Part shown: positions 5,501 through 34,969 of the stretch, one piece after another | Numbering within the stretch: the stretch's first letter is position 1 | How the letters are laid out: each line of letters opens with the position of its first letter | From: Thermodesulfobacteriales bacterium | Lineage (GTDB): Bacteria > Desulfobacterota > Thermodesulfobacteria > Thermodesulfobacteriales > Thermodesulfatatoraceae | Length of the DNA: 59,654 nucleotides | Assembly: GCA_026988575.1 (NCBI GenBank) | Contig: JALSKZ010000032.1 | Coordinates: 1 to 59,654 of the forward strand | Direction of reading: 5' to 3' | Notes under the pieces: generated by a model | Databases searched by the model: none | What the model was told of the DNA's origin: nothing | Seen by the model: only the letters and a program-made list of their open reading frames with translations | Translations under genes and position numbers: made by a program

Positions 5501-6046
5501 ACCCCTTACACGATTGCCAACTTAGAAAGACTTTCTGACCGCACCAAAGTGGCGCTGGGTGCGGCGGTGGCAGGGCTTAAAGTCATTAATACCCGTAAAG
5601 GCGAACGTATGGCCTTTGTAAAACTGGAAGATGGCGAAGACACTATAGAAATGATAGTGTTTCCTGACCTCTATAAAAAAGTAGTTGAGCTCTTAGAGAC
5701 CAAAGGCCTAATCTTTGTGGTGGGCACCTTTGAACGAGATGAAAGGGGAAGCAAAATAGTGGCCCACCAAATAGTCCCTCTAGAAGAAGCCCAAACCGTG
5801 GCGCGGGGTCAGGTAGAATTAGTCCTAAACGGCGAGGAGGTCCGTAGAGAACAGCTAGAGGCCTTAAAGAACCTGTTGGCCACGAGCAGAGGAAATTTTC
5901 CAGTAACATTGCGCCTAAATTTTAAAGAGGGCGAAGTGGCCATAGACCTGTCGAGAGATTTTCAAATAGAACCCCGTCAAGAATTGGGCCGGGCCTTGGA
6001 AGATCTCTTTGGAAAAGTCTCTCTTCACATAAATCTCGACCTATAG
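2588..6046 (+). CDS. dnaE: DNA polymerase III subunit alpha
   Basis: Catalytic subunit of the replicative DNA polymerase. The N-terminal PHP domain starts with FVHLHLHTEWSLLDG; the C-family polymerase core carries the metal-binding Asp motif PDIDVDF near residue 405; helix-hairpin-helix and OB-fold regions follow in the last third (OB-like segment near residues 990-1070). Length of 1152 residues is normal for DnaE1. Start ATG is preceded by a Shine-Dalgarno-like GGAGG about 8 bases upstream. The 96-base gap before it separates it from the asparagine-synthetase-like gene. Nothing unusual in the coding sequence. Confidence 0.97.
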   Translation: MADFVHLHLHTEWSLLDGAIRLRDLFPQAQEYGYQALAITDHGTLYGLIHFYEQALASGIKPILGCEVYVAPGSRYDRVAKSAHEAGFHLVLLCENEKGYKNLLRLVTLAHFEGFYWKPRVDKELLAQYNEGLIALSACLHGEVPAAILRGQMDKARALAEEYARIFPGRFYLELQENDLPEQKEVNQALVELARELGLPLVATNDCHYLRAEDTKVHDVLLCIQTNKTVHDENRLRFSTDKLYFASPQEMVERFAWCPEAIENTLEIAKRCNVKIELGQNHFPKYPIEPGRTYEEVFEEKARAGFERRLAELKKFPGLAASEDEYRQRLEYELEIIKNKGFASYFLVVADFISWAKKQKIPVGPGRGSAAGSLVAYAMGITNLDPIRYGLLFERFLNVERKSLPDIDVDFCMRRREEVIHYVRQRYGGEEYVAQIATFGQMKARAVVRDVGRALGFSYPEVDKIAKLIPETVSTLDKALVEEPRLRELVERDQRIAELIAIARALEGLPRHSSTHAAGVVIADAPLTQYCPLMKGDANEIVTQFDMKAVERVGLIKFDFLGLKTLTIIDHTLRLIKKHHGVELDLENLPLDDEKTYALLRKGDTDGVFQLESSGMKDLLIRMQPSEFSDLIAILALYRPGPLESGMVDQFIKAKHGEVEVSYLLPELEPILKETYGVIVYQEQVMKIAQALAGYSLGEADILRRAMGKKKPEVMAAQRERFVSGAVKRGIPQDKAEQIFDLMAKFARYGFNKSHSTAYALVAYQTAYLKAHYPLCFMTALLSYEMEKVDQVVKYVHVCRHMGIDILPPDVNESDIAFTITGDKIRFGLAAVKNVGEGAIEEILKARREGGPFKSLEDFCLRVDLKKVNRRVIEALIKSGAMDSLGATRASLIQVLDEMLDWVQSRRRDRERGQASIFDVVVQNTPASSPVQIPDLPEWSTTLKLAFEKEALGFYISGHPLEPYKKWLAYLTPYTIANLERLSDRTKVALGAAVAGLKVINTRKGERMAFVKLEDGEDTIEMIVFPDLYKKVVELLETKGLIFVVGTFERDERGSKIVAHQIVPLEEAQTVARGQVELVLNGEEVRREQLEALKNLLATSRGNFPVTLRLNFKEGEVAIDLSRDFQIEPRQELGRALEDLFGKVSLHINLDL

Positions 6047-6117
6047 ATCGTATTGAAACGCTTGAAAAGGCTTTTAAGTTTTCTTTAAATCTCCTCCGAT
6101 TTATAAATAAAATCTAT

Positions 6118-6146
6118 TTGACTTATTGATATTCTTCAATTATTTA
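6118..6146 (+). promoter_or_regulatory. Candidate sigma-70 promoter for the double-cubane operon
   Basis: The region after dnaE is AT-rich. TTGACT (6118-6123) matches the -35 hexamer at 5 of 6; 17 bases later TATTTA (6141-6146) is a weak -10. A start of transcription near 6153 would lie upstream of the GTG at 6180 but downstream of the TTG at 6126, which supports the later translation start. Only inspection, no experimental support. Confidence 0.4.
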
Positions 6147-6179
6147 AGCCTACGTCCTAAAAGGGTTAGGAGGTTTGGT

Positions 6180-7445
6180 GTGGGTTATGAATCCCTTTGG
6201 CAAAAATTAGGTCTAGATCTAGAGGCCCACGAGGGCCTACTAAATGGTCTTGGCAAGGTCTACGAACAGGTCTTTTTGGCGCAGAAAAATAGGCCTCAGG
6301 CCATGGAATACTTTGATCAGGTAGTGGGAAGTATTCATGGAGCGCGGGTTGAAGAGCTCTTTAAGGCCAAGGAAGAGTCTCGTCTGGTGGTAGGTACCTT
6401 TTGCGTCTTTGTTCCAGAAGAAATTGTATGGGCGGTAAACGGCATATGTGTGGGGCTTTGTGCTGGTGCCGAAGTAGGTTTTGAGCAAGCTGAAGAATTA
6501 TTACCCCGCAATCTCTGTGCCCTTATTAAGGCCTTTTTTGGTTTTAAGCTGGCGCGGGTATGTCCGTATGTGGAGATCTGCGACTTTTTGGTGGGAGAGA
6601 CCACTTGTGACGGCAAAAAGAAGGCCTACGAGATATTTAATTCATTAAAAAAGACCTATGTAATGCATGTGCCGCAAAAGAAAGATGAGGAAAGCTTAAA
6701 GTTGTGGCTAAATGAGGTAAGGCGTTTCAAGGAAGAAATAGAAAGGGCTTCGGGTAGAGAAATTTCTGTAGCCGAACTAAAAGAGGCCATTGAGCTTATC
6801 AATCGCCGCAGAGAGGCCTTAAATCGTCTGAATGAGCTGCGTCGCGCTGATCCGCCTCCTATCTCTGGTTTAGATACTTTGCTCATCAACCAAATCGCCT
6901 TTTACGATGATCCGGTACGCTTTACCACTAAGGTGAATGAATTATGTAGCGAGTTAGAAGAGCGGGTCAAAAAAGGCCAGGGAGTCTGTCCGAAGGGCAC
7001 ACCTAGAATTATTGTTTCTGGTTGTCCTATGGCCATCCCCAACTGGAAGATACCTTATATCATAGAATCTGCAGGGGCCGTAATTGTGGGCGAAGAATCC
7101 TGTGTAGGTCGTCGTAATACTAGAAATCTCGTCGAGGTTTCTTCCTCCACCGTAGATGGCCTCGTAGAAAATATAGCCAATAGATACATGGGAATAGATT
7201 GTGCTATTTTTACGCCTAATGTAGAGCGAGCCGAAAACCTGAAAGAGATGGTTTCAGAATTGTCTGCTCAAGGGGTAGTTCATTATAGTCTGAAATTCTG
7301 TGACCCCTATACCATCGAAGTTCACCACATGGATAACGCGGTATCTTCCTTGGTGCCCACACTCAGAATCGAAACGGACTATAGTCAAGAAGATATGGAA
7401 CAATTACGTACTAGAATAGAGGCGTTTCTCGAACTATTGAAATGA
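6180..7445 (+). CDS. Double-cubane cluster protein (HgdB/BcrBC-like, 2-hydroxyacyl-CoA dehydratase superfamily)
   Basis: 421 residues. Related to the subunits of 2-hydroxyacyl-CoA dehydratases but with the features of double-cubane cluster proteins, a family in which an 8Fe-9S cluster carries out very low-potential reductions (acetylene reduction was shown for a Carboxydothermus member). Visible cysteines: C128 and C134 in CPYVEICDF, C143 in GETTCDG, C282 in SGCPM, C308 in GEESCVGRR; the SGCPM/EESC signature is typical of this subfamily. Start: GTG at 6180 has AGGAGG ending 6 bases upstream; a TTG at 6126 in the same frame has no ribosome-binding site. The stop overlaps the start of the activase gene (ATGA). 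The physiological substrate is unknown; no CoA-transferase or second dehydratase subunit is adjacent, which argues against classic hydroxyacyl-CoA dehydration. Confidence 0.8.
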   Translation: MGYESLWQKLGLDLEAHEGLLNGLGKVYEQVFLAQKNRPQAMEYFDQVVGSIHGARVEELFKAKEESRLVVGTFCVFVPEEIVWAVNGICVGLCAGAEVGFEQAEELLPRNLCALIKAFFGFKLARVCPYVEICDFLVGETTCDGKKKAYEIFNSLKKTYVMHVPQKKDEESLKLWLNEVRRFKEEIERASGREISVAELKEAIELINRRREALNRLNELRRADPPPISGLDTLLINQIAFYDDPVRFTTKVNELCSELEERVKKGQGVCPKGTPRIIVSGCPMAIPNWKIPYIIESAGAVIVGEESCVGRRNTRNLVEVSSSTVDGLVENIANRYMGIDCAIFTPNVERAENLKEMVSELSAQGVVHYSLKFCDPYTIEVHHMDNAVSSLVPTLRIETDYSQEDMEQLRTRIEAFLELLK

Positions 7446-8242
7446 TAATAGTCGGCATTGATATTGGTTCTCGTTCTATAAAAAGCGTGGTCTTAAAAGA
7501 CGGGGTCTTAGAGGCGACTACATGTATAGAGACTACGTATGAACCCAAAGAACAAATAAGGCAATTATTATCTGGTCTACAATACGATTGTTTAGTAGCC
7601 ACGGGTTACGGACGTTATTTGGTTCGTGACGACTTTGGGGCCGAAGTAATCACCGAAATCAAGGCCCATGCCTTGGGGGTGCGTTATTTCTTTCCAGAGG
7701 CGCGCACTATATTAGATATTGGGGGACAAGACACCAAGGCCATAGCCCTTTCTCCAGAAGGTACTGTGGTTCGGTTTGAGATGAATGATCGTTGTGCGGC
7801 AGGTACAGGTCGCTTCCTTGAGGTTATGGCCCGGGCCTTGGGGGTTGAGATTGCAGGACTTGCGGACTTGGCCTTGGCGTCCTCAGAGGCCGCACCCATT
7901 AGCTCTCTCTGTACGGTGTTTGCAGAAAGTGAGGTCATAGGCCTTATCAGCCGTGGTCAAAGGCGAGAGATCATTGCCAAGGGTATAATCCTTTCCATTG
8001 CCAAGCGATCTACGGCCCTGCTTAAGAGGGTAGGCCTTCAGGCCCCGGTAGTTTTCACCGGAGGCGTGGCCTTAAACAAGGCCCTAGTGGAGACCTTGGA
8101 GAGACTTTTAAATCTCTCTTTATGGGTCCCTAGAGAGCCCCAAATTACCGGAGCCCTTGGAGCGGCTTTATCAGTCTGGAACACCAGGGCCGGGTTAGGG
8201 AGCCGGTGCTCCCCCAGGGCTGCAAACCCTGAGGAGCCCTGA
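7442..8242 (+). CDS. Acyl-CoA dehydratase activase-type ATPase (BadF/BadG/BcrA/BcrD family), DCCP reductase
   Basis: 266 residues of the ASKHA-fold ATPase family that uses ATP hydrolysis and a bridging 4Fe-4S cluster to inject one electron into a partner such as HgdB or a double-cubane protein. Motifs: phosphate-1 loop GIDIGSRSIKS, DIGGQDTKAI, C118 in NDRCAAGTGRF and C157 in SSLCTVFAE (the two Cys that hold the dimer-bridging cluster), and the GGVALN adenosine motif. Start ATG overlaps the stop of the partner gene, so expression is coupled. The protein is expected to end soon after GALGAALSVWN; the last roughly 18 codons and the stop lie inside the selC-like tRNA gene, so the C-terminal tail is encoded by tRNA sequence. 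Confidence 0.88.
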   Translation: MIIVGIDIGSRSIKSVVLKDGVLEATTCIETTYEPKEQIRQLLSGLQYDCLVATGYGRYLVRDDFGAEVITEIKAHALGVRYFFPEARTILDIGGQDTKAIALSPEGTVVRFEMNDRCAAGTGRFLEVMARALGVEIAGLADLALASSEAAPISSLCTVFAESEVIGLISRGQRREIIAKGIILSIAKRSTALLKRVGLQAPVVFTGGVALNKALVETLERLLNLSLWVPREPQITGALGAALSVWNTRAGLGSRCSPRAANPEEP

Positions 8243-8280
8243 AAAAGGGACTTGGTTGGTTCAACTCCAACCCCGGCCTT
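8187..8280 (+). tRNA. tRNASec-shaped tRNA with GCA anticodon (selC*-like tRNA-Cys)
   Basis: Cloverleaf drawn by hand. Acceptor: 8188-8194 pairs with 8272-8278 (7 Watson-Crick pairs), with a possible eighth G-U pair 8187/8279. D arm: six-pair stem 8198-8203/8208-8213 closing a four-base CGGT loop, a hallmark of bacterial tRNASec. Anticodon stem CAGGG/CCCTG (8215-8219/8227-8231) with loop CTGCAAA; anticodon GCA at 8222-8224 reads UGC (Cys), not the UCA of selC. A long variable arm lies at 8232-8254 (stem 8237-8240/8246-8249, extendable with one bulge). T stem 8255-8259/8267-8271 with loop TTCAACT. The discriminator is T by either pairing, the CysRS identity base. CCA is not encoded, unlike the other two tRNAs here. 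Minor tRNA-Cys species mimicking tRNASec are known in deltaproteobacteria; this appears to be one, overlapping the activase CDS by 56 bases. Confidence 0.88.
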
Positions 8281-8283
8281 TAT

Positions 8284-9297
8284 TTACAAATAAATTATTT
8301 TTTCGCCGCTCAGGACAGCTATTTCACCCGGATATAATATAAGGGGTTTTACTTGTCGTTTAAGGGCCTCACGCTTAAATAACCGGGGAGGTGCATCAAT
8401 AGATTCATCCCCTAGGCGGTAGGCCCCCCAGTGGATAGGCAAAGTCCACCGGGCCCCTAACTCTTGGGCTACTAAGACTGCCTCTTGCGGGTTCATATGA
8501 AAGGGGGCCATGAGCCAGCGAGGCAAAAAGGCCCCGCAGGGGAGTAAAGCCAGATCAAAAGGGCCAAAATGGGCTCCTATTTCGCGAAAACCAAAGTAAT
8601 AGCCGGTATCACCCCCAAAAAATAGCTTAAATCCCGGGACTTCTACCAGATAGCCACACCACAGGGCCAGATTAGTATCCAGAAGGCCTCTTTTGGACCA
8701 GTGCTGTACAGGAAGGGCGATTATACGCACTCCGTGGATAATTTGTTCATCAAACCAGTCAAGCTCTAATATATTGTTTTTGCCCCAAAAATAGCGAGAC
8801 GTGCCCAGAGGTACGATTATTTTTGGGTCTCCCCTCAGGCGGGCAAGGGCTCGACGACTCAAATGGTCTCTGTGGGCATGGCTTATCAACACTAGGTCTG
8901 GGGGAGGAAGTCTTTCGGGGGAAATAGGGGGAGGGGTTAGGCGCTTTACTACACCAGCAATGTTTTCAAATATGGGATCAAAAAGGATGTTCTTACCCTC
9001 TAGACGAAGCCAAACCGTACCATGCCCAAGAAAGCTTACAAGTGGCCCCTCATGGGTGCCCAGGAGCTCCGGATCGGGCCTGTATACCGGAACAATGCTG
9101 CGTTGACGTTCGCGTACATGGGAGATCTTCCACTTGATAATTTCACGGAGCACAGGGGCCTCTTGAGACAACCAGGGATTGATAAAGCCCCGTCTAGTAT
9201 GGTGCCGACGGTCTTTTGCCAGCTCTAACAGACTATATTGGCCTGCGTTTATTACTTTTTTGGGACCGAAGTATTGATGGAAATATTTAATAGACAT
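8284..9297 (-). CDS. Metallo-beta-lactamase-fold hydrolase (UlaG/NAPE-PLD-like)
   Basis: 337 residues. The N-terminal part leads into a beta-lactamase-fold core that starts LVSFLGHGTVWLRLEG, with the metal site motif SHAHRDHLS in the middle and further His and Asp residues in LPVQHWSKRG, FFGGDTGYY and LPIHWGAYRLG. This arrangement is that of the MBL subgroup containing N-acyl-phosphatidylethanolamine phospholipase D and UlaG-like lactonases. There is no clear signal peptide, so it is probably cytoplasmic. It is a single gene with its own promoter and runs convergently into the selC-like tRNA, ending 3 bases away from it. The substrate cannot be predicted. Confidence 0.82.
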   Translation of the reverse strand: MSIKYFHQYFGPKKVINAGQYSLLELAKDRRHHTRRGFINPWLSQEAPVLREIIKWKISHVRERQRSIVPVYRPDPELLGTHEGPLVSFLGHGTVWLRLEGKNILFDPIFENIAGVVKRLTPPPISPERLPPPDLVLISHAHRDHLSRRALARLRGDPKIIVPLGTSRYFWGKNNILELDWFDEQIIHGVRIIALPVQHWSKRGLLDTNLALWCGYLVEVPGFKLFFGGDTGYYFGFREIGAHFGPFDLALLPCGAFLPRWLMAPFHMNPQEAVLVAQELGARWTLPIHWGAYRLGDESIDAPPRLFKREALKRQVKPLILYPGEIAVLSGEKIIYL

Positions 9298-28885: not shown

Positions 28886-30370
<1,485 letters not shown>

Positions 30371-30396: not shown

Positions 30397-31599
30397 TTAA
30401 GCGAGTTCAGCAGAGCTCTTTATTAGGTACCACAGAAGCCCTTCAAGAAAACCCGCTTCACTTACGGTTAGAATCGGTATATTTAGGATGTCCATTACGG
30501 TGGTGAAGATCAAAAGGCCAGGCAGAATAATATCTTCGCGACCGGCTTCCATACCCTTTAACAATAGCCGCTCTTTGGTACTAAGAGCAGCCAGCTTTTG
30601 GACCATAGACTTCAAATCGTCTATTTTGAGCTGATGGCCATGGGTACGTTCGGGGCAATAAGTCTCCAGCCCCAAATCCAGACTGGCTAAACAAGAAACC
30701 GTTCCTCCAGTACCCACAAGGATTTTGGCCCCTCTAAAGGGAAAAAGATGGGCTTCAAGTTCTTCTTTTAAGAATTCCTCTACCTGGTTAATTTCCCCTT
30801 CTAAGGGGGGATCGTGGGCCAGAAATTGATCTCTAAGCCTTACGGCCCCTATGGGTAAACTTTTCCATTGGGAAATATTCTGGTCCTTTCCCAAGATAAA
30901 TTCGGTACTGCCGCCCCCTACATCAACTATCAATATTGGTTCATCGTTGTGGGCCAAGGTCTCTTTGACCCCCAAAAAGGTGGTCTTTGCCTCTTGCTCA
31001 GGACTAAATACCTCTATCTTTATCCCTAATTCCTTTTCTGCCTTCTCGATAAACAAAGAGGCATTAGAAGCCTCTCTTAAGGCGGCTGTACCAGCGGCTA
31101 TGTATTGTTTTACCGACAAGCGGGACATTTCGTTGACTAGTTCCGCCAGGCTTTCCAACCCTCTCTTGATGGCCTGCGAAGATAGTTGGCCAGACTGGGC
31201 AAGGCCTTCGGCCAGACGAACATTGTGGCGTCGTCTGACAAGCATCCGCAGGCCTTGGGGCCCGGGCTTGCCTATTAAAAGACGAAAGGTTTGCGAACCC
31301 AAGTCTAAGGCCCCATAAGGGGGCTGGTTTAAACGTTCTTTGATATCTTTGCCAGGTTTGAAAATAATACGTTTGCGCGGAGGTAACTTGCGAACTTCTT
31401 TTGTCTTTGGATTAGTAAAGATTCTTTCTCTTTGTTGACGCAAGAAGAACCGGCCAAAACCTCTAATCTCTATCCGGTTTCCTTCTATTAGAGAAAGCGT
31501 TAGCTTTTCGAATAGTAGATCTACTAGATATTCCAGATCTCTTTTACGAAAATCCGGAAAATAAAGGGCCAAACGGTTTACTAAATCCTTTTTAACCAT
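30397..31599 (-). CDS. Fusion of IHF-beta/HU-type DNA-binding domain and Ppx/GppA phosphatase
   Basis: 400 residues in one continuous frame. Residues 1-91 are a complete HU/IHF subunit closest to IHF-beta: RIEIRGFGRF in the beta saddle, the minor-groove intercalating Pro arm in NPKTKEV, and the family C-terminus FKPGKDIKERL. After only about four residues the Ppx/GppA exopolyphosphatase/pppGpp phosphohydrolase domain begins: GALDLGSQTFRLLIG, AAGTAALREASN, VDVGGGSTEFILG, and GTGGTVSCLASL, filling the rest. Ppx-type proteins hydrolyse polyphosphate or convert pppGpp. The position after rpsA and sppA is where ihfB (himD) stands in many proteobacteria, so this gene occupies the ihfB slot. The fusion is what is unusual. 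GTP/polyP specificity is not predictable. Confidence 0.88.
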   Translation of the reverse strand: MVKKDLVNRLALYFPDFRKRDLEYLVDLLFEKLTLSLIEGNRIEIRGFGRFFLRQQRERIFTNPKTKEVRKLPPRKRIIFKPGKDIKERLNQPPYGALDLGSQTFRLLIGKPGPQGLRMLVRRRHNVRLAEGLAQSGQLSSQAIKRGLESLAELVNEMSRLSVKQYIAAGTAALREASNASLFIEKAEKELGIKIEVFSPEQEAKTTFLGVKETLAHNDEPILIVDVGGGSTEFILGKDQNISQWKSLPIGAVRLRDQFLAHDPPLEGEINQVEEFLKEELEAHLFPFRGAKILVGTGGTVSCLASLDLGLETYCPERTHGHQLKIDDLKSMVQKLAALSTKERLLLKGMEAGREDIILPGLLIFTTVMDILNIPILTVSEAGFLEGLLWYLIKSSAELA

Positions 31600-31601
31600 G
31601 A

Positions 31602-32480
31602 CTAATGGCCAATGAATGATAGATAAAGAGGCGCAAAATAAAGACTAAGGGCCTCACTTCTAAAGTCTTCCCCTAATATCCGTCGTACAAGACTCCTGTC
31701 GCGAGACGGATAGACCAAGGTCGGACGCTGTTTGAGCCCGGCCAGATCAGAGGCCACCCTTACCGCCTTCTCAAAATTGCCCAACTCATCAATAAGCCCG
31801 TATTCCAAGGCCTTTCTACCGGTAAAGACGCGGCCATCAGCAAATTGTAGTACTTTCTGGCGTGGCAAGTGACGCGAAGACACTATGGCCTCCACGAATT
31901 GCCGGTAAATATCTTCGATAGTGCTCATAAGGATCTTTTTCTCAGCCGGGGTAAGGGGCCTAAATATGGAACCAGCATCTTTATACGGACCACTCTTCAA
32001 GACCGTGGCCTGCACTCCCAAGCGTTCGAGGAGTTTCTGGAGGTTTGGTACCTGCATCATGACCCCGATACTACCGGTAAGCGTACCAGGCATAGCCAAA
32101 ATTTTCGTGGCGCCAAGGGCCGCGTAAAGGCCACCTGAGGCCGCTACCGAGCCCATGGAAACTACCACTGGTTTTACGCTGCGGGCCTCTTTTATGGCCT
32201 CATAAATCTCCTGGGCCGCACCTACTGTACCCCCAGGGCTGTCAATACGTACTAAAATGGCCTTTACGTCCTGGTCTTCTTTAAAGTCTTCCAGATCCTT
32301 TAAGATCCTATCACTGGAAGATATAACCCCTACTATCTTTACTACCCCGATTTTAGGGCCGGAGTATATATCGGGTTTACCATGCCAAAGGAGGAAAATT
32401 CCCAGCACAAAGAGTATGAATAATACCAGGAAAAAGCCTCCCAAAAAGGCTAAACCTGTAATAACCGGATTACGAGACAC
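31602..32480 (-). CDS. sppA: Signal peptide peptidase SppA
   Basis: 292 residues, short (36K-type) SppA. One N-terminal membrane helix (ITGLAFLGGFFLVLFILFVL), then the ClpP-like fold with the nucleophile Ser in MGSVAASGG and the likely general-base Lys in LKSGPYKDAGS. It degrades remnant signal peptides in the membrane. GTG start with AAAGAGG upstream; 14 bases after rpsA. Confidence 0.93.
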   Translation of the reverse strand: MSRNPVITGLAFLGGFFLVLFILFVLGIFLLWHGKPDIYSGPKIGVVKIVGVISSSDRILKDLEDFKEDQDVKAILVRIDSPGGTVGAAQEIYEAIKEARSVKPVVVSMGSVAASGGLYAALGATKILAMPGTLTGSIGVMMQVPNLQKLLERLGVQATVLKSGPYKDAGSIFRPLTPAEKKILMSTIEDIYRQFVEAIVSSRHLPRQKVLQFADGRVFTGRKALEYGLIDELGNFEKAVRVASDLAGLKQRPTLVYPSRDRSLVRRILGEDFRSEALSLYFAPLYLSFIGH

Positions 32481-32494
32481 CTCTTTGACCTACA

Positions 32495-34195
32495 CTACTT
32501 CTTTTCGGAAGCTAATTGCTCTCTTAATACCGCTCCCAGGGTTATACCAGGCCCTTTTTGTTCCTTGCTAAATTCTTTGTAATGACGTTTTTCTTCGTCT
32601 TCCTTGAGTTTTTTAATCGAAAGTCCCAACCGGCGGTTTTCTGGCTCTACTTTTATTACCTTGGCCTGGACTTCTTGTCCTGGTTCGTAAAGCCCTACCG
32701 GTGTTTTAATCTTCTTATCCGAGACTTCCGACACGTGGATCAGCCCCTCCACCCCTTCTTCAAGCTCTACAAATATGCCAAAATCGGTCACGTTGGATAC
32801 CTTACCCGAGACTACAGAACCTATAGGATACTTTTCCGGCACAGACTCCCACGGATCAGGGGTTAACTGTTTAATCCCCAGGGCCAACCGCTCGCGCTCT
32901 CGATCTATTTTTAAGACCACGGCTTGGACTACATCTCCCGGCTTATAACGCTCTTCGGGATGTTTTATTCGTCCCCACGATAGATCGGATACGTGAATAA
33001 ACCCGTCTATACCCTCCATAACCTCCACGAAAATACCAAAATCGGTAACAGTCTTTACCGGGGCCTCAATTACGGTACCCTCGGAAAATTGTTCGGTTAG
33101 TACATCCCACGGATTGGGTTCCACTTGACGGAGACTAAGGGAAATGCGTCTGTTCTCTTCATCGATACCGATAACTACCACTTCTACTACGTCTCCTTCG
33201 GAAAGGACATCCTTAGGATGCCTTATCCTTTTTGTCCAAGAGAGCTCGGATACATGAATAAGCCCCTCGACTCCAGGCTCAAGCTCCACAAAGGCTCCAA
33301 AATCAGTAAGGGAGACCACCTTGCCCTGCACTTTAGCCCCTAGAGGGTATTTTTCCCCTATATTTTCCCATGGATCCGGTGTCAGTTGTTTTACTCCCAG
33401 GGCAATCTTTTCTCTTTCGGGATTGTACTTGATTACCTTTACCTTAATACGATCGCCCACCTTGAAGTAATTAGACGGGTGTTTTACACGCCCCCAAGAT
33501 ATATCTGAGACATGGAGAAGACCATCTACACCACCTAAATCCACAAACACCCCGTAATCAGTAATATTTTTGACTATTCCCTCGCGTACTTGCCCTTCTT
33601 CCAGGCTCTCCAAAAGACTCTTGCGCTGTTCTTCTTGTTCCTTTTCCAGGACCACTTTACGGGAGACGACTATATTATTTTTCTTACGGGAACAGTTAAT
33701 CACCGCCACTTTGATATGGGTGTTAATAATTTCTTCCGGATATTTAGGCGTCTTTAAAAAGGCCTGTGAAAAGGGCAAAAAGGCCCTGAGGCCCTGAATA
33801 TCTACGGCAAAACCACCTTTAATACGTTCTAAGACGTAAGCTTCAAGGAAGGCATTATCTTTGGCGGCCTTCTCTACGGTTTCCCAGGCCTTCTGTCGTT
33901 GTAAACGCCGATAAGAAAGCTTTACCAGACCATCAGGGGTGCGGAGGCGTTCTACCAATACCTGGACTTCATCTCCAGGCTGGACTCTTATTGTACCGTC
34001 TGGCCCCTTAAATTCACTTACCGGGACTACTCCTTCGCTTTTGTAGCCTATATCTATGATTACACTGTCTTCGTCCACGCGAATGACCTTTCCCGTGACC
34101 ACCTCCCCGCTGGATATGGTCTTGATTTCCTCGTCAAGGAGCTGGGCGAAATTCTCCTCGGCGAGTTTTTCGGTTTTTTCTGCCATGTTCTCCAT
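32495..34195 (-). CDS. rpsA: 30S ribosomal protein S1
   Basis: 566 residues from ATG 34195; a GGGGAGG lies about 9 bases upstream, and another ATG (34186) three codons later is also possible. Six S1 RNA-binding repeats are visible, the last four highly alike with cores such as ITDYGVFVDLGGVDGLLHV and VTDFGIFVELEEGVEGLIHV. S1 recruits mRNA to the ribosome. The order cmk-rpsA-sppA-ihfB is conserved in many Gram-negative bacteria. Confidence 0.96.
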   Translation of the reverse strand: MENMAEKTEKLAEENFAQLLDEEIKTISSGEVVTGKVIRVDEDSVIIDIGYKSEGVVPVSEFKGPDGTIRVQPGDEVQVLVERLRTPDGLVKLSYRRLQRQKAWETVEKAAKDNAFLEAYVLERIKGGFAVDIQGLRAFLPFSQAFLKTPKYPEEIINTHIKVAVINCSRKKNNIVVSRKVVLEKEQEEQRKSLLESLEEGQVREGIVKNITDYGVFVDLGGVDGLLHVSDISWGRVKHPSNYFKVGDRIKVKVIKYNPEREKIALGVKQLTPDPWENIGEKYPLGAKVQGKVVSLTDFGAFVELEPGVEGLIHVSELSWTKRIRHPKDVLSEGDVVEVVVIGIDEENRRISLSLRQVEPNPWDVLTEQFSEGTVIEAPVKTVTDFGIFVEVMEGIDGFIHVSDLSWGRIKHPEERYKPGDVVQAVVLKIDRERERLALGIKQLTPDPWESVPEKYPIGSVVSGKVSNVTDFGIFVELEEGVEGLIHVSEVSDKKIKTPVGLYEPGQEVQAKVIKVEPENRRLGLSIKKLKEDEEKRHYKEFSKEQKGPGITLGAVLREQLASEKK

Positions 34196-34243
34196 GTCTC
34201 CTAACCTCCCCAAAATTTGACTGCACCTTATACCAGAGGGAAC

Positions 34244-34969
34244 CTAAAAATTCAATGTATCCCTACTGGCTGGTAAGGGGCTAATACCCCTTTGTTTGGC
34301 GTAAAAATGTATCTTTTGAAGCATAAGATCCAAAACTTCCCTTAGGTCTAGACTTGAAGTATCAATAATAATAGCGCCTTTAGGGACCACCAAGGGCGCT
34401 ATCTTTCGATTTTGATCTTGTTTGTCTCTTTTTATTAGTTCCTCAAGGACTTGCTGATAGGTAACGTTAGCCCCTTGGGCAATAAGGTCATTATAACGCC
34501 GTTTGGCCCTTTCTTCAGGGCTAGCGGTGAGAAAAAATTTGACGTCTGCTTCAGGAAAGACCACACTGCCCATGTCTCGGCCCTCCGCCACTACCCCCCC
34601 TTCTAGGCCATAGGAGCGTTGGAGTCTTAAGAGCCAGGACCTAACACCTGGAATTTGAGCCACCACCGAAGACCATCGGTCTATTTCGGGGGTACGCAAA
34701 AAGGGGGTTACGTTGCGGCCGTTTAAGAAGACTTCTACCCCTTGAGCACCTTGTTTCAGGCGTAGATCAAGCCTCTCACACAGCTGCTCAATGGTTTCTT
34801 TATCGTTAGGATCTATTTGGGCCTCTTTGGCCCAGAGCCCTACGGCCCTATACATAGCCCCGGTATCTAGAAATAGATACCCAAGCTCTTGGGCCAGTCT
34901 TCGCCCGAGAGTGCTTTTTCCGGCCCCTGCTGGACCATCAATGGTAATTAGTAATCCCTTAGGCCCCAC
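34244..34969 (-). CDS. cmk: Cytidylate kinase
   Basis: 241 residues. Phosphorylates CMP/dCMP. P-loop DGPAGAGKSTLGRRLA, LFLDTGAMYRAVGLWA, and GRDMGSVVFPEADVKFFLTA are conserved. The GTG start lies 10 bases inside the end of hisC. Upstream of rpsA as in most Gram-negative genomes. Confidence 0.95.
   Translation of the reverse strand: MGPKGLLITIDGPAGAGKSTLGRRLAQELGYLFLDTGAMYRAVGLWAKEAQIDPNDKETIEQLCERLDLRLKQGAQGVEVFLNGRNVTPFLRTPEIDRWSSVVAQIPGVRSWLLRLQRSYGLEGGVVAEGRDMGSVVFPEADVKFFLTASPEERAKRRYNDLIAQGANVTYQQVLEELIKRDKQDQNRKIAPLVVPKGAIIIDTSSLDLREVLDLMLQKIHFYAKQRGISPLPASRDTLNF

Follow-up and report, generated by a model that had tools for sequence, protein, structure and literature searches.

The minus strand of the window (the whole stretch of DNA that was analysed, 59,654 nucleotides) encodes, in a single uninterrupted open reading frame, a protein in which a full IHF-β subunit runs into a full two-domain Ppx/GppA phosphatase, and this fusion is kept across the order Thermodesulfobacteriales (Table 1). 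Each half clearly belongs to a known family, and the combination is, to our knowledge, undescribed in print; a search of open-access full text found no published description of an IHF-β–Ppx fusion, in agreement with the first-pass annotation, which knew of no described protein of this composition. Domain databases may list it. Judging from sequence comparison, we propose that the protein may be an IHF heterodimer subunit through which IHF carries an alarmone phosphatase, with or without allostery between the two modules, a reading that we consider about evenly poised between right and wrong.

Table 1. Positions of the ihfB-ppx fusion gene, its parts and its neighbours in the window.
Feature	Position	Strand	Remarks
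ihfB-ppx fusion gene	30397..31599	-	ATG start; 400 residues plus stop; kept across Thermodesulfobacteriales
IHF-β domain, residues 1-91	31327..31599	-	PF00216, tree and residue counts; E44, R46, F48, G49, N63 and P64 conserved
Linker QPP, residues 92-94	31318..31326	-	Model secondary structure; relatives without junction indels
Ppx/GppA two-domain phosphatase, residues 95-400	30400..31317	-	PF02541, nearest solved structures, invariance
Ppx/GppA motifs	DLGS 99-102, R106, E203, DVGGGSTE 226-233, GTGG 296-299, GREDI 353-357 (residues)		
sppA (signal peptide peptidase)	31602..32480	-	Upstream of the fusion; stop 2 bases before the fusion ATG
rpsA (ribosomal protein S1)	32495..34213	-	Marks the ihfB slot
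cmk (cytidylate kinase)	34244..34969	-	Gene neighbourhood
guaB (IMP dehydrogenase)	28886..30361	-	Downstream of the fusion

In the Pfam comparison, PF00216 is matched over its full length by residues 1 to 91 of the fusion (model positions 1-90, E = 1.5e-20), and PF02541 is matched by residues 114 to 392 (model positions 7-281 of 285, E = 1.4e-63), with both matches far above the curated cut-offs; the HU-HIG profile PF18291 reaches 18.3 bits against a cut-off of 26.2 and is thus below threshold. The two-domain Ppx is complete within residues 95 to 395. Alignment to solved structures and the model both start the Ppx fold at residue 95, which leaves a linker of about three residues; in the secondary structure of the model this linker lies between the last IHF helix (residues 84-90) and the first Ppx strand (residues 95-100). 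The AlphaFold model of the single chain, built with 21 fused homologues, has a mean pLDDT of 89.6 and a pTM of 0.80, with both folds intact. The reading frame, the Pfam matches and the model therefore agree with the original description of the protein as a full IHF-β and a full Ppx/GppA in one frame with a near-zero linker. An internal start that would yield free Ppx is not supported: in-frame ATG, GTG and TTG codons around the junction show no conservation, and most of them have no Shine-Dalgarno sequence.

The gene was correctly placed by the first-pass annotation in the ihfB slot after rpsA and sppA, and its downstream neighbour is guaB. Wherever flanks are present, fused loci all have the order sppA-[ihfB-ppx]-guaB-gspF, and the guaB linkage kept in these loci is also seen in some unfused outgroups. 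Of the 41 genomes of the order examined, 39 hold the locus, finished isolates among them, and the junction is crossed in one frame in every one: 36 encode the full-length fusion without interruption, two have it cut by contig ends with the junction still crossed, and one (G029) reads in one frame across the junction with a frameshift later inside the Ppx part, which is likely an assembly error in this MAG. The fusion was not found in the remaining two MAGs (G025 and G040), but the adjacent sppA is missing there too, so the locus is simply absent from those drafts, which does not point to a loss of the fusion. Named carriers include Thermodesulfatator autotrophicus, Thermosulfurimonas dismutans, Thermodesulfobacterium thermophilum, T. 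hveragerdense and T. hydrogeniphilum, and Caldimicrobium MAGs also carry the fusion; several of the fusion-bearing genomes are single contigs. In nearly all relatives the DLG motif lies 98 residues from the start methionine, there are no junction indels among relatives whose protein identity is about 38-55% through the order, and dN/dS in pairwise comparisons is low in both halves, at about 0.03-0.24. Separately, one draft (G036) has two different fusion genes (C12:32481-33662 and C16:13014-14192), which is probably a mixed bin (5% contamination), with true duplication as the alternative. At 8188-8278 on the plus strand, the window also has a tRNA that resembles selC but bears a Cys anticodon, scored by Rfam as the selenocysteine tRNA RF01852 (61.7 bits) and by ARAGORN as a 94-base tRNA with the anticodon GCA.

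When a junction profile was run on 395 genomes of the phylum, the 18 genomes from the order that were in this sample all matched over the full length, and the other 377 gave no such match. In 84,980 species genomes full junction matches came from the Thermodesulfobacteriales group only, in a scan that used the junction patterns of this fusion and would miss differently built fusions in other phyla. Outside the order, Ppx and IHF-β are separate genes close together in five genomes of the family f20, and the f20 locus that was read fully (G057) has the order hisC-cmk-rpsA-sppA-ihfB-(sua5-like gene, other strand)-ppx-guaB. In the rest of the phylum, ihfB lies after rpsA, in many cases with an intervening sppA, and a stand-alone ppx precedes guaB in two other Desulfobacterota (G049 and G056). 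In the Ppx tree, one branch with 100/100 support splits the fused domains from those of f20, and a clade of the fused domains is set apart from every stand-alone Ppx in the sample (92/86 support). Since f20 shares the gene order with two separate genes, the fusion appears to have arisen once, in place, and the simplest account is a single joining event between adjacent ihfB and ppx genes in an ancestor of the whole order. Relatives that have two separate genes here, which the first-pass annotation had named as evidence against its proposal, thus do occur outside the order, where they reveal the ancestral state, but not within it. A different arrangement was observed at two clostridial loci (L061 and L064, about 5875-9189), where an S1-domain gene separates an HU gene from a ppx gene about 2 kb away, constituting a distinct neighbourhood of HU and Ppx genes in Firmicutes.

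This history allows for a neutral fusion, in which adjacent genes lost the intervening stop and the two modules work independently as usual, IHF-β in DNA bending and Ppx on the cytosolic alarmone pool, joined for expression only. The pre-fusion order of two genes at the same locus in f20 is what would be expected of such an event, as is the presence of two domains that are complete and separately recognisable. Against it, the joint is unbroken through the whole order, with a 3-residue linker free of indels at about 38-55% protein identity, and because the linker is so short no IHF-β could be free of its enzyme of roughly 34 kDa, which would be a considerable constraint if the attachment were useless. 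We therefore regard neutral fusion as an unlikely explanation, though the most serious of the alternatives to an IHF that carries an alarmone phosphatase.

The nearest solved structures to the Ppx half are those of the Aquifex aeolicus Ppx/GppA (1t6d, 1t6c and 2j4r), with 1t6d and 1t6c as the top Foldseek matches (E about 1e-32, TM 0.84-0.90 by target). This enzyme is a two-domain ASKHA phosphatase with about 31% identity to the fusion over about 300 residues, and it shares with it the catalytic Glu, the GGGS loop and both Arg positions, but unlike the fusion it is stand-alone and has no DNA-binding domain. Residues E203, D226, GGG 228-230, S231, GG 298-299, R106 and R354 are conserved in the Ppx half, and by alignment Glu203, Arg106 and Arg354 of the fusion correspond to A. 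aeolicus Glu119, Arg22 and Arg267, which we take to be catalytic and ppGpp-contacting positions. The E. coli and H. pylori GppA/Ppx enzymes (6pbz, 6pc0-6pc3 and 1u6z) have domains I and II in common with the fusion; they have two more C-terminal domains that are absent in the fusion, and they too are without a DNA-binding domain. The A. aeolicus Ppx/GppA structure has been solved with ppGpp (Kristensen 2008, as cited in PMC3411833). A V. cholerae gppA mutant is complemented by GppA core residues 18-310 (PMC7552824), and the main evidence against pppGpp as a substrate is that the two short M. tuberculosis Ppx/GppA homologues showed no pppGpp hydrolysis (PMC3411833), so that the two-domain form is no guarantee of that activity.

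The source genome has no Ppx/GppA other than the fusion, and the same holds for nearly all genomes of the order, where any further Ppx/GppA matches are weak or partial or come from bins that are duplicated or mixed. PPK1 was found in none of the 41 order genomes by a search that was positive in seven control genomes, and PPK2 in none above the cut-off, with sub-cut-off partial matches in four; a RelA/SpoT gene is present, as a single copy, in 39 of the 41, and the two misses are drafts that are 70-72% complete. This distribution makes pppGpp a likelier substrate than polyphosphate, and the neighbouring guaB, a GTP-synthesis gene, may likewise point toward guanine nucleotides. Of the polyphosphate/pppGpp hydrolase first proposed, the polyphosphate part is accordingly weakened and the pppGpp part fares better, with pppGpp as the likely substrate of the Ppx half, as predicted from gene content. 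It is improbable, in our estimate, that the Ppx half acts instead on inorganic polyphosphate, which would make the protein a nucleoid-bound exopolyphosphatase. The Ppx/GppA family does include exopolyphosphatases, the two-domain Rv0496 of M. tuberculosis prefers short polyphosphate (PMC3411833), and an unrecognised synthase could supply polyphosphate in the order, but the lack of PPK1 and of above-threshold PPK2 matches in those genomes, the near-universal RSH gene, and the position of the fusion beside guaB, not ppk, all argue the other way.

The N-terminal half has the marks of a genuine IHF-β, as the first reading held, with slot, tree and specificity residues in agreement. In a tree of the HU family, the fused domains group with seven ihfB proteins from the rpsA-sppA slot of other Desulfobacterota (100/99 support) and apart from HU and IHF-α, in an alignment of only 92 columns that does not resolve the placing of E. 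coli IHFB, at the base of the slot-protein side. Residues E44 and R46, which we take from the E. coli literature to be the IHF-β specificity residues, are identical in 30 of 30 sequences, as are F48, G49 and the arm proline P64, and the arm Asn-Pro pair (N63 and P64) is invariant or nearly so. The fused IHF domain is basic, with a net charge of +3 to +15, but some arms in the Thermosulfurimonas group are only weakly basic, at net +1 to +4. With IhfB/HimD (PF00216) the fusion has in common the length, the fold, the slot after rpsA (with sppA in Desulfobacterota), E44 and R46, the arm proline, and an IhfA encoded at pheT; the difference is at the C terminus, which in E. coli IhfB stops at residue 94 and in the fusion runs into a 300-residue enzyme. 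HU-HIG proteins (PF18291) and tailed HU proteins such as mycobacterial HupB also consist of an HU-family domain and an extra segment, but those segments are non-enzymatic, unlike the Ppx of the fusion.

The predicted partner subunit is encoded separately. The IHF-α gene of the source genome lies in the order rplT-pheS-pheT-ihfA-merR, and in each genome of the order that was checked it is intact and adjoins pheT; the arrangement of ihfB by rpsA and ihfA by pheT is also that of E. coli and Salmonella (PMC8942017). The presence of this gene makes the suggested tethering of the phosphatase to an IHF-α heterodimer plausible. Only three HU-family genes, for HU, IhfA and the fusion, are present in G012 and G014, both of them complete genomes, so they contain no IHF-β without a phosphatase. 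The source genome has four HU-family genes in addition to the fusion, namely an HU gene, an IhfA gene and a divergent pair on the IhfA side of the tree, and a second, unfused IHF-β was sought among them and rejected, as none is in the rpsA slot. The two divergent IHF-like genes (L180 3914-4282, G000:C53; L182 1116-1418, G000:C21) are outside the pheT and rpsA slots and have partial counterparts in Thermodesulfatator.

HU-family domains are obligate dimers, and the Ppx of the fusion is a two-domain form without the C-terminal domains of the long enzymes, so one could imagine that the IHF-like domain has lost specific DNA binding and is a mere dimerisation or heat-stabilising module for Ppx. We consider this very unlikely, given that the DNA-contacting E44, R46 and arm Asn-Pro are invariant or nearly so, that the domain is basic, and that the smallest genomes hold no other IHF-β gene. 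Finally, a sequencing or assembly artefact through a lost stop or a frameshift between the IHF and Ppx parts, a concern for a source genome that is a draft of 88 contigs, can be dismissed for practical purposes, because the same reading frame is kept through the junction in 39 of 39 locus-holding genomes, single-contig ones included, with low dN/dS in both halves, which excludes chance or assembly error.

For an IHF that carries an alarmone phosphatase, the predicted mechanism is that IhfB-Ppx and IhfA, the product of a separate gene, would assemble into an IHF heterodimer, which would bind and bend DNA as usual with one phosphatase module per dimer. The Ppx module would remove the 5'-terminal phosphate of the pppGpp made by the single RelA/SpoT, forming ppGpp beside the bound DNA, and it may also bind (p)ppGpp. 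A further step, which we put forward more tentatively still than we would a neutral fusion, is that binding or hydrolysis of pppGpp in the Ppx domain alters the grip of IHF on DNA or its bending, so that the stringent signal would act directly through a nucleoid protein and not solely by way of RNA polymerase and enzymes. In enterobacteria, transcription of ihfA and ihfB responds to (p)ppGpp (PMC8942017); by analogy, the tie between IHF and (p)ppGpp, at the level of expression there, would be physical in the fusion.

In the Thermodesulfobacteriales, which are heat-loving and sulfate- or sulfur-metabolising, one protein is the only Ppx/GppA in nearly all genomes and, in the smallest, also the only IHF-β, an arrangement suggesting that the chromosome itself is where a starvation signal is processed. 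Fusions fixed through a whole order often indicate a real functional link, and here a global DNA-bending protein is linked with the family of enzymes responsible for the pppGpp/ppGpp ratio, in hosts apparently without polyphosphate kinase. The fusion may offer a simple system in which to test both the role of Ppx/GppA in bacteria that have no polyphosphate kinase and the direct action of alarmones on nucleoid structure, and the cultured heat-loving sources (Thermodesulfobacterium, Thermodesulfatator and Thermosulfurimonas) should ease purification of the protein.
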